64,000 bases of DNA from contig JBBDQU010000022.1 in the NCBI GenBank assembly GCA_040905865.1, forward strand, positions 1-64,000. The letters run 5' to 3'. Shown piece after piece: positions 46,091 to 54,196 of the stretch. Under the pieces are notes generated by a model, which ran no database searches, was not told the DNA's origin, and saw only the letters and a list, made by a program, of their open reading frames with translations. The DNA comes from Alphaproteobacteria bacterium (GTDB taxonomy: Bacteria > Pseudomonadota > Alphaproteobacteria > UBA8366 > GCA-2717185). The translations under genes and the position numbers were made by a program. The number at the start of each line of letters is the position of its first letter. The first letter of the stretch is position 1.

Positions 46091-46783
46091 TTATTTGGCG
46101 CTGACGTTTCCGATGACCTGACGCAACCGGTCGGCCTGCGGATTGGCGAATTTGCCGTCGAGCAGAATCGCATTCGGTGTCGCCGTCGTATCGTTATAAT
46201 ATTCGTAATTCATGGATGGGCGCCGTTCGATCACCGCGCCTTCGATCGAGCCGCCCAGGAAGGCGCCCTTGCCGATCGAATAGGTGATGATATCCGCGCC
46301 GACCGCCGTCGTGGTCGAGCCTTCGATGCCGACGCCGTAGGGGCCGACCGCCGCGCTCAGGTCGCCGCCGATCTTCACCCTGTTTTCAAGGATAGAAGTC
46401 AGCCCCTTCGCGGTCATGATGATCAGCATGGTTTCCGACACCTGGCCGCCGGCCTGTAATCCGAAGCTCGCCGCACCCATCGTATAGAAAGCGGGATAGC
46501 TCCACTGGTTGCCGCTGCCCTTGGCCATCAGGACCCCGGTGCCGCCCTCGCCGCCGACGATGAAGGCGCCCTTGATCAGGGCCGGAACGATGAAGACGCC
46601 GCGGGCTTCGCGCAGGTATTTCCTGACGTGGTCCCTGATGTCTTCGCGGCCGGCCAGTTTTTCGATGGTGATGATCGATTTATCGATCAGTTCCTGTTGC
46701 TCCGACAGCGCCCGGGCCGGTGTGCTCGCCGCGAAGGAGGCCGCCATCAGGGCCGCGAAGAAAAATGCTGTAATCCGTGTCAT
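46091..46783 (-). CDS. Secreted SYLF (YSC84-type) lipid-binding domain protein
   Basis: A 230-residue protein with a signal peptide ([25 protein letters not shown], cleavage about residue 25) and one SYLF domain: [48 protein letters not shown] and [24 protein letters not shown] domains bind lipids; the bacterial role is unknown. It sits between cobO and cobQ with short gaps (43 and 20 nt), so it is probably co-transcribed with them although a B12 role is not established. Confidence 0.87.
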
Positions 46784-48763: not shown

Positions 48764-51700
48764 TTAATTTCCCTGTGCGGCCATTGCTTCCAGCGCACGC
48801 CGGGCGGTGTTCGATTTCGGCTGCCACAATCGGCGGTCCTGCGCCTCGATCAGGCGTTCGGCGATCTCCCGCAGCGCCGCCGGATTGTGGTCGCGGATGA
48901 AGCCGCGCACGGTGTCGTCGCCCAGATAGGCCTCGAACACGGCATCGAAATGGTGGTCCTGTACCGCGCCGGTCGTGGCGGCGAAGGCGAACATGTAATC
49001 GACCGTCGCCGCCATTTCGAAGGCGCCCTTGTAGCCGTGGCGCATCACGCCGGCGATCCACTTCGGGTTCAGCACCCGGCCCCGCACGGTGCGGGCGATT
49101 TCCTCCTCCAGCGTGCGGATGCGCGGGCTTTCCGGGCGCGAATGGTCGTTATGATAAACGGCTGGCCGCTCGCCCCGCAGGCTGTGCACGGTAGCGGTCA
49201 TCCCGCCTTCGAACTGGTAATAGTCGTCGGAATCCAGCAGGTCGTGCTCGCGGTTGTCCTGGTTGTGGACCACGGCATCGACCCCGCGCAGCCGGTTTTC
49301 CAGCATCCCGTGAGCCGCCTCGCCGTCCGATCCCGCGCCATAGGCATAGCCGCCCCAGGCGATATAGGCGCGGGCCAGATCGTCGCGCGATTCCCACCCT
49401 TTCTCGTCGATCAGCGCCTGCAGTCCAGCGCCATAGGCGCCCGGTCTGGATCCGAAGATGCGCGCGGCGGCGCGGCGCATCGCGGTGGCGGCGTCGATGC
49501 CCTCCGTTTCCAGCGCCGCCGTGTCTTCACGTGTGCGCGCGGCCAGCGGGTTATCGCGCGCGTCTTCGTCCAGCGCCGCCACCGCGCGCACGGCGGAATC
49601 GAACAGGTCGATCAGGTTTGGAAAGGCGTCACGGAAGAAACCTGAAATCCGCAGGGTAACGTCGACCCGGGGCCGGTCCAGCACGTTCAGCGGCAACACC
49701 TCGAACCCGGTAACCCGGCGCGACGCCGAATCCCATGTCGGGCGCGCGCCGATCAGCGCCAGCGCCTGGGCGATATCGTCGCCGCCGGTGCGCATGTTGG
49801 ACGTGCCCCAGGCGGACAGCGCCATGGTCTTCGGCCAGTCGCCATGGTCCTGCGCGTGGCGTTCGACCAGCATCTGCGCGGACTTCCATCCCAGCAGCCA
49901 GGCCGCCGGCGTCGGCGCGGTGCGGGTGTCGATGGAATAGAAGTTGCGTCCAGTCGGCAATACATCCGGCCTGCCGCGCGTCGGCGCGCCGGACGGGCCG
50001 GGCGCAACAAAACGGCCGTCCAGCCCGGCCAGCAGCCCGGCGATTTCGGCATCGCCGCAGGCTTCGACATCGGGACGGATACGGCTTTCGATTTCGTCGA
50101 GGACGGGGAGGGAGGCGGTCCAATCGGCAGAGGGAGTCGACGTGCCGCTGACAAGGTTCAGCGCCAGAATTTCGAGGCGCTCCACCGTGTCGCCATTGGT
50201 GCGCCAAGGGATTGCACGCGCGACCCCCTCACCCCGACCCTCTCCCCCCAAGGGGGGCGAGGGAGAAAGATTCGATCCATCGCCCAATTCTTCACTCCCT
50301 CTCCCTGTGGGGAGAGGGTCGGGGTGAGGGGGAGACACGATCACCGTTGCGAGTTCTCCCGGCCGTGCCTCATACCACGCATCTCCTAACACGCAGTCCA
50401 GTGGATCGAATACAAGCCCGAGGTCCTTCGCCAGCGCGCGGATCAGCGAGGCGTCGCCGCCTTTGCCCTTGCCGCGCGGTACCCGGGCCAGCGCGACCAG
50501 CAGGTCGTTCAGCCGGTCCCCGTCCGGCGATTCGCCGAAGACATGCAACCCGTCGCGGATCTGCATTTCCTTCAACTCGCACAGGAAATTGTCGAGCTTG
50601 CCCAGCGCATCGTCCTCCGATGCGTCCGGCGCGATGCCGCAATCCCTGTCCAGCCCCAGCGACCGGGTCAGTTCCAGGATCTGGCCGCCGAGCACCTTCA
50701 GGCGCCGGGGGTCGACTCCGGCGGCTTCGAAATACTCATCGACCAGCGCCTCCAGATCCTTCAGCGGGCCATAGCTTTCGGCGCGGGTCAGCGGCGGCGT
50801 CATGTGATCGATCACCACCGCCTGTGCGCGGCGCTTGGCCTGCGTCCCTTCGCCCGGATCGTTGACGATGAACGGGTACAGGTTCGGCAGCGGTCCCAGT
50901 GTCGCTTCCGGAAAGCATTCTTCCGACAGCGCCAGCGCCTTGCCCGGCAGCCATTCCAGGTTGCCATGTTTGCCCATATGGACCAGCGCCTGCGCCCGGA
51001 ACGATTCCCGCAGCCAGGCGTAAAACGCAAAGTAGTTGTGCGGCGGCACCAGCGCCGGGTCGTGATAGCTGGCCACCGGGTCAATATTATATCCGCGCGC
51101 CGGCTGCAGGCCGATGGCGACGCCGCCGCAGCGGAAGGCGGGAATCGTGAAGCTGCCGCAATCCAGTTCGCCTTCGCGGTAGAACGGGTCCGATTCCGGC
51201 GGACCCCAGCGTTCGGCGACCTGCGCACGCACGGCTTCTGGCAGCCCGCCGAAGAACAGGTGGTAATCGGCGAGCGACAAAGTTTCCTCGATCCTGCGGC
51301 CGCGCCAGCCCGCATTGGTCGGCCCCTCGGTCAGCCGCGCGACCAGCGCATCGCCGTCTTCGGGAATGTCCGTCACGCGGTAACCGGCGGAACCCATTGC
51401 CCGCAGCACGGTGACGGTGCCGGCCGGTGTGTCCAGGCCGACGCCGTTGCCGATGCGCCCGTCCCGGTTCGGGTAGTTGGCGAGGATCAGCGCGACGCGC
51501 CGGTCACCCGGCTTCGTGTTCCGCAGCATTGCCCAGTTGGCGGCGAGCGTCGCCACGAAGGCGCAACGGTCGGCGACTGGTTTGTAGGTGACGATATCGG
51601 CTTCGACCGCGTCGTCGCGCTGCGCCGGCGCCTTGAAGGAAACCGCGCGGGTGAGCAGGCGGCCGTCCACTTCCGGCAACGCCACGTTCATCGCGATATC

Positions 51701-52627
51701 CCGCGCCGACAGTCCGCGCGTGCTGCCGCGCCAGGCTTCTTCCGTCCCGCCGGAAAACACGATCTGCAGGATCGGGCAGTCGGCATCGTCGAAGGGCGTT
51801 TCACTGCGCTTCGCCCCAGGGCTGCTCAGGGCGAAACCGGTGCCGTTCAGGATGACGGCGGGGGCGGCTTCGGCAATCAGCCGGCGCATGGTTTCCGCCG
51901 CGACCGGGTCCTTCAGACTGGTGGCGTAGACCGGCAGCACGTTCAGTCCCGCCGCATTCAGCGCGGTTATCATGGCGTCGATGGCGGCGGTGTTCGATGC
52001 CTGTACCAGCGCGCGGTAGAACACCAGCGCCGCCGCCGGGCGGTCGGGCCGCCAGTCCAGATCGGCGATGGTTTCCGGCGCGCGGTCCGGCGCATACAAC
52101 CCGGCGCGCAGCAACGGGGCGGGTTCGCGCCATTCGGTGTCATGCCCGCAAAGGCTGGCGGCATAGGCGAGGCATTCGCGGTAATTCGCCGGACCGCCCT
52201 GCACGCAGTATTGCCACAGCCGGTGGGCCACATCGCCCGGCAGGGTGGACAGCGAGGTCAATTCGGCGTCCGGCTGGTCGTCGCCGGGCAGGAAGGCCAA
52301 TGCGATGTTTTCCCTGCGGCAGGTATCGGCGATCTGCTCCACACCGTAGGGCCAGTAGCCACGCCCGCCGAGCAGGCGGACGATCACCAGTTTTGCCTGT
52401 CCGACCACGGATTCGACGTAGAGATCGACCGACATGTTGTGGCCGAGCTGCATCAGGTTGGCCAGCCGCAGGGAAATCGCACCGGCTCTGTGCCTGTGCG
52501 CGGCAGCGAAGCCGGCAATCTCGCTATCGGCGGCGGTCAGGATGACGACATCGCCCGGCGTCTGTTCCAGGTCGATGGCGGGGCTTCCGTCCTCGATCGT
52601 GCCGGGCTGGGTGGCGAGCAGGTGCAT
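48764..52627 (-). CDS. cobN: Cobaltochelatase large subunit CobN
   Basis: The 1287-residue large subunit of the ATP-dependent cobaltochelatase (H-subunit homologue), which inserts cobalt into hydrogenobyrinate a,c-diamide in the late-cobalt pathway. CobN/BchH-like segments include VHMGKHGNLEWLPGKALALS, NNMRTGGDD-like NMRTGGDDIAQALALIG and KWIAGVMRHGYKGAFEMAATVDYMFAF. Its partners, chelatase subunits CobS and CobT, are absent from the window (the cobS and cobT here are different enzymes). It follows cobW by 6 nt. A palindromic insertion encodes about residues 766-802. Confidence 0.96.
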   Translation of the reverse strand: MHLLATQPGTIEDGSPAIDLEQTPGDVVILTAADSEIAGFAAAHRHRAGAISLRLANLMQLGHNMSVDLYVESVVGQAKLVIVRLLGGRGYWPYGVEQIADTCRRENIALAFLPGDDQPDAELTSLSTLPGDVAHRLWQYCVQGGPANYRECLAYAASLCGHDTEWREPAPLLRAGLYAPDRAPETIADLDWRPDRPAAALVFYRALVQASNTAAIDAMITALNAAGLNVLPVYATSLKDPVAAETMRRLIAEAAPAVILNGTGFALSSPGAKRSETPFDDADCPILQIVFSGGTEEAWRGSTRGLSARDIAMNVALPEVDGRLLTRAVSFKAPAQRDDAVEADIVTYKPVADRCAFVATLAANWAMLRNTKPGDRRVALILANYPNRDGRIGNGVGLDTPAGTVTVLRAMGSAGYRVTDIPEDGDALVARLTEGPTNAGWRGRRIEETLSLADYHLFFGGLPEAVRAQVAERWGPPESDPFYREGELDCGSFTIPAFRCGGVAIGLQPARGYNIDPVASYHDPALVPPHNYFAFYAWLRESFRAQALVHMGKHGNLEWLPGKALALSEECFPEATLGPLPNLYPFIVNDPGEGTQAKRRAQAVVIDHMTPPLTRAESYGPLKDLEALVDEYFEAAGVDPRRLKVLGGQILELTRSLGLDRDCGIAPDASEDDALGKLDNFLCELKEMQIRDGLHVFGESPDGDRLNDLLVALARVPRGKGKGGDASLIRALAKDLGLVFDPLDCVLGDAWYEARPGELATVIVSPPHPDPLPTGRGSEELGDGSNLSPSPPLGGEGRGEGVARAIPWRTNGDTVERLEILALNLVSGTSTPSADWTASLPVLDEIESRIRPDVEACGDAEIAGLLAGLDGRFVAPGPSGAPTRGRPDVLPTGRNFYSIDTRTAPTPAAWLLGWKSAQMLVERHAQDHGDWPKTMALSAWGTSNMRTGGDDIAQALALIGARPTWDSASRRVTGFEVLPLNVLDRPRVDVTLRISGFFRDAFPNLIDLFDSAVRAVAALDEDARDNPLAARTREDTAALETEGIDAATAMRRAAARIFGSRPGAYGAGLQALIDEKGWESRDDLARAYIAWGGYAYGAGSDGEAAHGMLENRLRGVDAVVHNQDNREHDLLDSDDYYQFEGGMTATVHSLRGERPAVYHNDHSRPESPRIRTLEEEIARTVRGRVLNPKWIAGVMRHGYKGAFEMAATVDYMFAFAATTGAVQDHHFDAVFEAYLGDDTVRGFIRDHNPAALREIAERLIEAQDRRLWQPKSNTARRALEAMAAQGN
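50224..50332. repeat. Palindromic repeat inserted in frame within cobN
   Basis: Perfect 24-bp inverted arms at 50224-50247 (CCCCCTCACCCCGACCCTCT and four further C) and 50309-50332, with a 61-nt spacer that itself contains CT/GA-rich complementary blocks. It lies inside the cobN reading frame without a frameshift and encodes a low-complexity, proline/glycine-rich peptide (PPHPDPLPTGRG near one end and GGEGRGEG near the other). Such GC-rich palindromes are a known class of dispersed repeat in proteobacterial genomes. Confidence 0.85.
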
Positions 52628-52633
52628 CCCGTG

Positions 52634-53662
52634 TCAGCCCAGCACCGTCTCCCAGATCGCCTTCTTGTCCAGCCCCGCGAAGCCGATGACGACAATATGG
52701 CTGCGGCGCTCCTCGCCCGGCGTCCATTCGCGGTCGAAATACCGGTCGAGCCGCGGACCGACCATCTGCACGACTTCGCGACGGGCGATTCCCGGGCGGT
52801 CAAGGAAACCCTTCACCCGCAGGATATGGTGCTGCGCCACGGCCTGCCGCAGCCGCTTCTCCAGCGCGTCCGCATCCGCGACGGGCCCGGGTGTGATGAT
52901 AAAGCTTTCGAAATCGTCATGGTCGTGATCGGATTCGTCGTCGTGACGGGAATGCCGTGTGTCCAGGTCGTCCTCCGCGCCCGCGCCGAGCCCCAGCAGG
53001 ACAGCAGGGTCGACCCGGGCGTTGGCGGCGCTGATCACCTGGGCGCCTGGCCGGATGCGCGCCGCCATCTGGTGGCGAAGGACGGTGGCGGCGGCCTTCG
53101 GGATCAGGTCCGTCTTGTTCATCACCACCATATCGGCGCAGGCCAGCTGGTCCTGAAAGACTTCCTCCAGGGGGTCGTCATGATCCAGCGCCGGGTCGGC
53201 CATGCGCGCCGCCAGCAGGGCGGCGGGGTCGGCGGTAAATACGCCTTCGGCCATCGCCGCGGAATCGACAACGGCGATCACGCCGTCGACGGTGACGCGG
53301 CTGCGCACTTCCGGCCAGTTGAACGCCTTGACCAGCGGCTTGGGCAGCGCCAGCCCGGACGTCTCGATGATGATGTGATCGGGCGGATTGTCACGGTTCA
53401 GGATGATCTCCATGGCGGGCAGGAAATCGTCGGCGACCGTGCAACAGATACAGCCATTGGCAAGTTCGACGATATCGTCCTCCCCGCAATCCTCGATCCC
53501 GCAACCCAGGAGGACATCGCGGTCGATGCCGAGGTCGCCGAACTCGTTGATCAGAAAGGCCAGCCGTTTGCCCCTGTTCTGTTCGATCATGTGGCGGATC
53601 AGGCTGGTCTTGCCGGCGCCAAGAAAGCCGGTGATGACGGTCGCGGGAATTTTTTCGGTCAT
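52634..53662 (-). CDS. cobW: CobW-type GTPase, cobalt chaperone
   Basis: A 342-residue COG0523 G3E GTPase. Walker A is TGFLGAGKTSLIRHM (Gly12-Thr19), the metal-binding CxCC motif is Cys71-Ile-Cys73-Cys74 in ANGCICCTV, and NKTDLI is the base-recognition motif. A His/Asp-rich stretch (SRHDDESDHDHDDFE, about residues 240-255) precedes the C-terminal CobW domain. It is believed to deliver cobalt for corrin synthesis. Gaps of 6 nt to both cobU and cobN show one operon behind the riboswitch. Confidence 0.94.
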   Translation of the reverse strand: MTEKIPATVITGFLGAGKTSLIRHMIEQNRGKRLAFLINEFGDLGIDRDVLLGCGIEDCGEDDIVELANGCICCTVADDFLPAMEIILNRDNPPDHIIIETSGLALPKPLVKAFNWPEVRSRVTVDGVIAVVDSAAMAEGVFTADPAALLAARMADPALDHDDPLEEVFQDQLACADMVVMNKTDLIPKAAATVLRHQMAARIRPGAQVISAANARVDPAVLLGLGAGAEDDLDTRHSRHDDESDHDHDDFESFIITPGPVADADALEKRLRQAVAQHHILRVKGFLDRPGIARREVVQMVGPRLDRYFDREWTPGEERRSHIVVIGFAGLDKKAIWETVLG

Positions 53663-53668
53663 GATATT

Positions 53669-54196
53669 CTAATTGTCCTTTAGCGTGAGGGGCAGCCCGG
53701 CGGCCATAAACTGGACGCGGTCGGCGGCGGCGGCAACCGCCTGGTTCAGGTTTCCGGCCATGTCGCGGAAGGCGCGCGCCAGCGGATTCGCGGGCACAAC
53801 GCCAAGCCCTACCTCGTTGGCGACAATTACCACCGGGCCAGCCAGGCCGGCCAGCGTATCGACCAGATGCCGGGTTTCCCTGTCCGCGTCACGGTCGGCC
53901 AGCATCACATTGGTGATCCAGAGGGTCAGGCAGTCGACCAGCACCGGCCGGTTCGGCGCCGCATGTTTTGCGATGGCGAAGGCCAGCGCCAGCGGTTCCT
54001 CCACCGTTTGCCAGCGGTCGCCTCGGCGTCGCCGGTGCCGTTTGATCCTGTCGATCATTTCCGCATCGCCCGCATGCGCGGTGGCGATATAGGTCGCACC
54101 CGTCCAGGACGTGCCGAAACCGGCTTCGATCAGCGTTTCCGCGTGACGGCTTTTTCCCGACGCCGCGCCGCCCAGGACAAGCGTCACCGGACGCAA
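53669..54196 (-). CDS. cobU: Adenosylcobinamide kinase / guanylyltransferase
   Basis: Phosphorylates and guanylylates adenosylcobinamide during nucleotide-loop assembly. The kinase P-loop is TLVLGGAASGKSRHAETLI at the N-terminus, followed by ATYIATAHAGDAEM, RIKRHRRRRGDRW (site of the guanylylated His) and VIVANEVGLGVVP. The start is uncertain. The TTG at 54196 has an excellent ribosome site (AAGGAAGA, 7 nt) and gives 175 residues. A GTG at 54187 and an ATG at 54253, which abuts the riboswitch, are alternatives. First gene of cobU-cobW-cobN. Confidence 0.93.
   Translation of the reverse strand: MRPVTLVLGGAASGKSRHAETLIEAGFGTSWTGATYIATAHAGDAEMIDRIKRHRRRRGDRWQTVEEPLALAFAIAKHAAPNRPVLVDCLTLWITNVMLADRDADRETRHLVDTLAGLAGPVVIVANEVGLGVVPANPLARAFRDMAGNLNQAVAAAADRVQFMAAGLPLTLKDN

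Follow-up and report, generated by a model that had tools for sequence, protein, structure and literature searches.

A palindromic pair of predicted triplex motifs in frame within a CobN loop, and the association of its repeat family with DUF559 nuclease genes

The cobN gene of the window (the whole 64-kb stretch of DNA analysed) carried an in-frame palindromic element (50224-50332, minus strand), inserted at a loop in which CobN proteins of other Alphaproteobacteria repeatedly contained palindromes, and belonging to a repeat family that was associated with DUF559 nuclease genes and biased in its orientation around them. We propose, with moderate confidence, that the palindrome represents one non-autonomous member of a dispersed family of triplex motif (TM) repeats, lodged in a probably disordered CobN loop, and that these repeats are mobilised by the DUF559 protein.

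The host gene (48764-52627, minus strand), taken from the ORF list, encoded a cobaltochelatase large subunit of 1287 aa (PF02514, Pfam CobN-Mg_chel; TIGR02257, NCBIfam cobalto_cobN). Its open frame was uninterrupted across the palindrome, which was delimited by repeat analysis, folding and CobN comparison and encoded the Pro/Gly-rich peptide SPPHPDPLPTGRGSEELGDGSNLSPSPPLGGEGRGEG (about residues 766-802). As described in the earlier note, the palindrome lay in frame in cobN at these residues and possessed perfect reverse-complement arms of 24 bp (50224-50247, plus strand, and 50309-50332, minus strand, in repeat and mismatch searches) with a 61-nt spacer; once mismatches were allowed, the arms reached 41 nt at 85% complementarity. 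Its folding energy was -94.8 kcal/mol, compared to -58.4±4.1 kcal/mol for shuffled sequences (z = -8.8). A search of the 64-kb window with a 22-mer of the arm and up to three mismatches gave no further match (0 expected by chance). The hairpin was not attributed to a known RNA family, the best Rfam matches being plant and animal miRNA families far under the gathering scores, i.e. chance matches to a long hairpin.

The cobalamin cluster around cobN was interrupted by a Ysc84 gene (46091-46783) and likewise by a sulfotransferase-family gene (PF13469; 47648-48616, minus strand), foreign to this cluster and located between cobO and cobN. An antisense open frame of 1046 aa (50543-53683, plus strand), opposite cobN and cobW and with no Pfam match, was most likely a by-product of the high GC content.

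The TM finder used here was written for this analysis and implements the criteria given by Holder et al. 2015 (PMC4666352): the strand is of the pyrimidine-purine-purine type, its stem comprises 6-15 triads with no more than one mismatch, and its loops measure 1-6 nt. It recovered each arm of the palindrome as a class II TM (pyrimidine-loop-purine-loop-purine), one with 11 triads (CCCTCGCCCCCCTTGGGGGGAGAGGGTCGGGGTGAGGGGG; 50224-50263, minus strand) and the other with 10 triads (CCCTCTCCCTGTGGGGAGAGGGTCGGGGTGAGGGG; 50297-50331, plus strand), both with one Watson-Crick mismatch. The two motifs were inverted relative to each other and were the only TMs in the window, both strands being scanned. 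The right arm was nearly identical to the E. coli motif CCCTCGCCCCTTTGGGGAGAGGGTTAGGGTGAGGGG, which was reconstructed from the control oligo in PMC4666352 by reverting its four G-to-C substitutions. By their predicted architecture, the cobN arms are TM/BoxC/PIT intrastrand triplex motifs.

A pattern search, together with a covariance model trained on 11 copies, located related copies at about 20 places of the 4.37-Mb genome, and a TM was detected in most of them. One of the two objections anticipated in the earlier note, an absence of other genomic copies, therefore does not hold. Based on codon-position GC, all 16 other copies checked were outside coding-like frames, often directly behind a gene, in agreement with the earlier view that such repeats normally sit between genes; among the copies inspected, the cobN copy was the exception.

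On contig C60, two family copies (82604-82717 and 83132-83244), in direct and not inverted orientation, enclosed a 136-aa ORF that represented the only DUF559 gene of the genome (PF04480, Vsr-like PD-(D/E)XK endonuclease; E = 9e-37). The residues expected of a PD-(D/E)XK site (D73, E84, D86 and H90) were invariant in 11 DUF559 proteins. None of the three Y1_Tnp genes of the same genome was located at a listed element copy.

The distribution of repeats around DUF559 genes was surveyed in three samples (the Magnetospirillum family plus the genome studied here, Pseudomonadota, and plasmid-collection records), which gave 64 loci with complete flanks and overlapped in at least one place (L169 = L226). 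At 43 of the 64 loci, the gene was flanked on either side by matching repeats at a distance of up to 330 bp, compared to none of the 64 distal flanks, none of 77 background windows, and 5 of 21 Y1_Tnp loci. TMs up to the same distance occurred at 37 of these 64 loci, with 85 motifs in total (about 2 per kb), but only at 4 in the distal flanks (9 motifs, about 0.1 per kb), and none were found in the 77 background windows or at the 21 Y1_Tnp loci, which were from the Magnetospirillum family and served as mobile-gene control (Fisher p of 1e-6 or less, with a limited control panel). After removal of duplicates and addition of four further plasmid records, strict TMs within 330 bp were on both sides at 23 of the 67 distinct loci, on one side at 16, and absent at 28, some of which carried other hairpins. 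When TMs were present on both sides, the nearest two were inverted in 20 of 23 cases. Overall, the repeats showed a strong and oriented association with DUF559 genes.

Deinococcus DUF559 genes likewise had TMs, and cyanobacterial plasmids showed the same picture, but with another hairpin family. In Deinococcus, the cassette formed by the DUF559 gene and its TMs was located in aromatic-degradation (hpa/paa) operons at varying junctions: between hpaB and an oxidoreductase gene in D. proteolyticus, between the oxidoreductase gene and hpaE in NW-56, between paaD and paaZ in D. psychrotolerans, and adjoining a VOC gene in D. aetherius. The oxidoreductase/hpaE junction occupied in NW-56 was a tight overlap, i.e. 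empty, in D. proteolyticus. On a plasmid of Photobacterium sp. GJ3 (L291:1852-3294), a DUF559 gene was followed by 11 TMs over 1.4 kb, many of them recurring at intervals of about 148 bp on both strands. The E. coli gene ycjD encodes a DUF559 protein, has TMs behind it, and was present in 3365 of 5426 complete E. coli genomes (5372 for the neighbouring sapF). No clean empty site for ycjD was seen in the E. coli strains without it; in two of these strains (L214, L215), genes for an MFS efflux pump and an outer-membrane efflux protein were found downstream of sapF instead. The polymorphism of the Sinorhizobium element consisted of arms lost or rebuilt, not of clean insertion. The DUF559 locus also gave no clean empty site in the sister genome G003, where one element copy lay behind the same hydrolase gene and was followed by an IS110-like transposase gene. 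For the repeats, the analysis revealed neither a transposition event nor an excision product or a duplicated target site.

From this association we infer both the role of DUF559 as mobiliser of the repeats and the chemistry involved. Two facing TMs would constitute a non-autonomous mobile repeat, which would have landed in the disordered CobN loop; its length having preserved the frame, CobN would tolerate the Pro/Gly-rich peptide. The loop would be hit repeatedly because few other parts of the protein are permissive. A DUF559 gene between two TM copies would be arranged like a nuclease gene with terminal inverted repeats on its two sides, and the enzyme would cut the structured repeat DNA, a copy then being joined elsewhere, in a manner similar to that proposed for RAYT transposases and REPs. 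As a DUF559 protein of Caulobacter (VsrA) has been proposed as a mismatch-repair nuclease (PMC12907096), the association with repeats may not mean mobilisation, and the DUF559 enzyme may serve several functions.

The nuclease could instead be a passenger resembling a homing endonuclease, which cuts the repeats and whose gene is copied into these target sites, the repeats themselves spreading otherwise. Nuclease genes within or between repeats, including direct copies as in the present genome, would be accounted for in this way, as would the DUF559 loci with repeats on one side only (16/67). We nevertheless judge it unlikely, as a self-contained unit fits better both the inverted bias (20/23) and the Deinococcus cassette junction, of which the empty counterpart has no repeat.

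Mere co-occurrence, in which repeats and DUF559 genes gather at recombination junctions between genes, and in which slippage during replication and homologous recombination account for the spread of the repeats with no dedicated enzyme, appears distinctly improbable given the orientation bias of the TMs, their rarity in distal flanks (4/64), and their absence at Y1 transposase loci, which are mobile genes too (0/21). It would agree with the proneness of E. coli TM loci to rearrangement (PMC4666352), with the lost or rebuilt arms of the Sinorhizobium element, and with the efflux genes that replace ycjD in E. coli strains lacking it.

Mobilisation by DUF559 remains the preferred reading. We give even chances to its broader form, in which DUF559 genes represent a widespread class of mobile cassettes with triplex-hairpin ends (Proteobacteria, Deinococcus and probably Cyanobacteria), and BoxC/PIT/TM repeats their non-autonomous offspring, i.e. 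a second nuclease-repeat partnership beside RAYT-REP. If causal, the DUF559 partnership would be a larger finding than the insert itself. The spreading mode of these hairpin repeats has been unexplained so far, and a nuclease gene systematically framed by TMs offers a concrete and testable mobiliser candidate, present in E. coli K-12 as ycjD; if mobilisation is true, it would also give a role to a Pfam family still named for its 'unknown function'. No report linking DUF559 to palindromic or triplex repeats was found among the open-licence papers searched that name DUF559, which is not proof of absence.

The insertion itself was examined by alignment of CobN with more than 80 relatives (80 of them named). 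The loop from FDPLDC to WRxxGDTVE, 62 residues long here, mostly comprised 18-24 residues in relatives, and the palindromic segment was absent from most of them, indicating that residues 766-802 are an insertion rather than a segment common to CobN homologues. A second species of the same genus (G002, L097) had the same insert at the same place and of equal length, its arms being conserved and its spacer having diverged; the insertion thus predates the split of the two species and is not very recent. A third species of the genus (G003) had a 36-residue loop without palindrome, which may be what remains of an older insert or may have arisen independently. No clean empty site was found for the cobN copy from which a target-site duplication of the MITE kind could be read, and the G003 loop was itself longer than usual. 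In an AlphaFold model of CobN 550-1287, weak in its basis (16 sequences, mean pLDDT of 68), pLDDT was below 50 at fragment residues 216-256, corresponding to CobN 765-805, i.e. the insert, and the loop is probably disordered. Of the earlier reading as a surface loop or a recent insertion, an insertion into a variable, probably disordered loop is supported, but the word 'recent' is not. A function of the insert within CobN, or as a selected regulatory RNA hairpin, might be suggested by the frame and length kept in two species and by the very stable hairpin, but is very improbable. The sister copy has uncompensated, unpaired changes in its arms and is not recognised as a TM any more, which speaks against a functional RNA or compensatory structure; in addition, the spacer diverges freely, most relatives lack the segment, and the weak model predicts it to be disordered. 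Nothing in the sequences compared suggests selection on the hairpin.

A survey of this loop in 55 genomes of the Magnetospirillum family yielded five further CobN proteins with in-frame palindromic inserts (G388, G389, G394, G409 and G442), which differed from one another in sequence. In G419 (L122; G419:C2:325453-326636), a palindromic element was present at the loop and the frame was broken exactly there; the gene may be a pseudogene or frameshifted, or the assembly may be wrong at this point. Two other palindromic elements were located in a second CobN loop about 28 residues on (G397) and slightly upstream of the loop (Hoeflea, L089). The insert of the Magnetospirillum MAG G389 (L073 / L119) was not made of triplex motifs but was a CGTC-type REP (CGTCATCCCCGCG...GCGGGGATGACG), its start CGTCATCCCCGCG resembling the REPs with a CGTC tag described by Di Nocera et al. 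2013, among them Rickettsia RPE-4 and RPE-6 (PMC3733652). In a class-wide sample, no palindromes were found in the unusual-length loops inspected (about 20 of about 100), which were deleted or low-complexity. One of the loops (L107; G087:C72:3512-4838) was enlarged by about 128 aa of low-complexity, non-palindromic repeats with units like NDNDGDGGRPAVKSPI. In four genomes (L114, L115, L116 and L117), the loop was almost fully deleted, which also argues that it is dispensable. The CobN loop is permissive and has been used by at least two kinds of element, independently in other Alphaproteobacteria. In-frame decoration of genes by palindromes was already known (PMC3733652); several kinds of palindrome in one loop of one enzyme make a strong example of it, with repeats turned into protein repeatedly at one site, outside the obligate intracellular Rickettsia.

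The CobN inserts were also compared with the DUF559 flanks of 21 genomes. The own-genome flank was the best match for G388, G394 and G419, ranked second for the insert studied here and 18th for G442, while the CGTC-type insert of G389 matched no DUF559 flank. A DUF559 match was found in all five genomes with TM-like CobN inserts, compared to 17 of 47 others (p = 0.01), one of the five matches being partial and p being 0.14 without that genome. This comparison supports the link between the repeats and DUF559 without proving it.

Among known systems, the cobN element shares with the TM/BoxC/PIT repeats the Y-loop-R-loop-R architecture, a near-identical sequence, inverted pairs and multiple copies (PMC4666352). 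It differs in lying inside a gene and in the tie of its family to DUF559, whereas E. coli TMs are always intergenic and no mobility gene or function was found around them (PMC4666352). Intergenic location is a described habit of the E. coli TMs and stands outside their structural definition. The RIME elements of Rhizobium, which contain two palindromes in about 108 bp, may be members of this repeat family.

The family also resembles the REP/REPIN-RAYT system in its use of an inverted hairpin pair as a non-autonomous unit and in copies flanking a nuclease-type gene, but the cobN element has no GTAG tag and its partner is a PD-(D/E)XK protein of the DUF559 family instead of the Y1 tyrosine transposase RAYT (PMC2817692, PMC3116915). 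A RAYT/REP origin of the repeats was rejected, as none of the 21 Y1_Tnp loci had a TM.

RPEs and CGTC-tagged REPs, like the cobN element, are palindromes in frame within conserved genes; such an insertion occurs at about one recB site in two Xanthomonas species, and CGTC repeats are described to lack a dedicated transposase (PMC3733652). The cobN element differs from them in having no CGTC tag and another arm sequence, and its peptide matched no RPE model of NCBIfam even at E up to 1. The likeness to Rickettsia RPEs drawn in the earlier note therefore holds for an in-frame palindrome in a conserved protein and not for RPE membership. Judged from its sequence, the cobN element works like an RPE and is built from predicted BoxC/PIT/TM triplex motifs.
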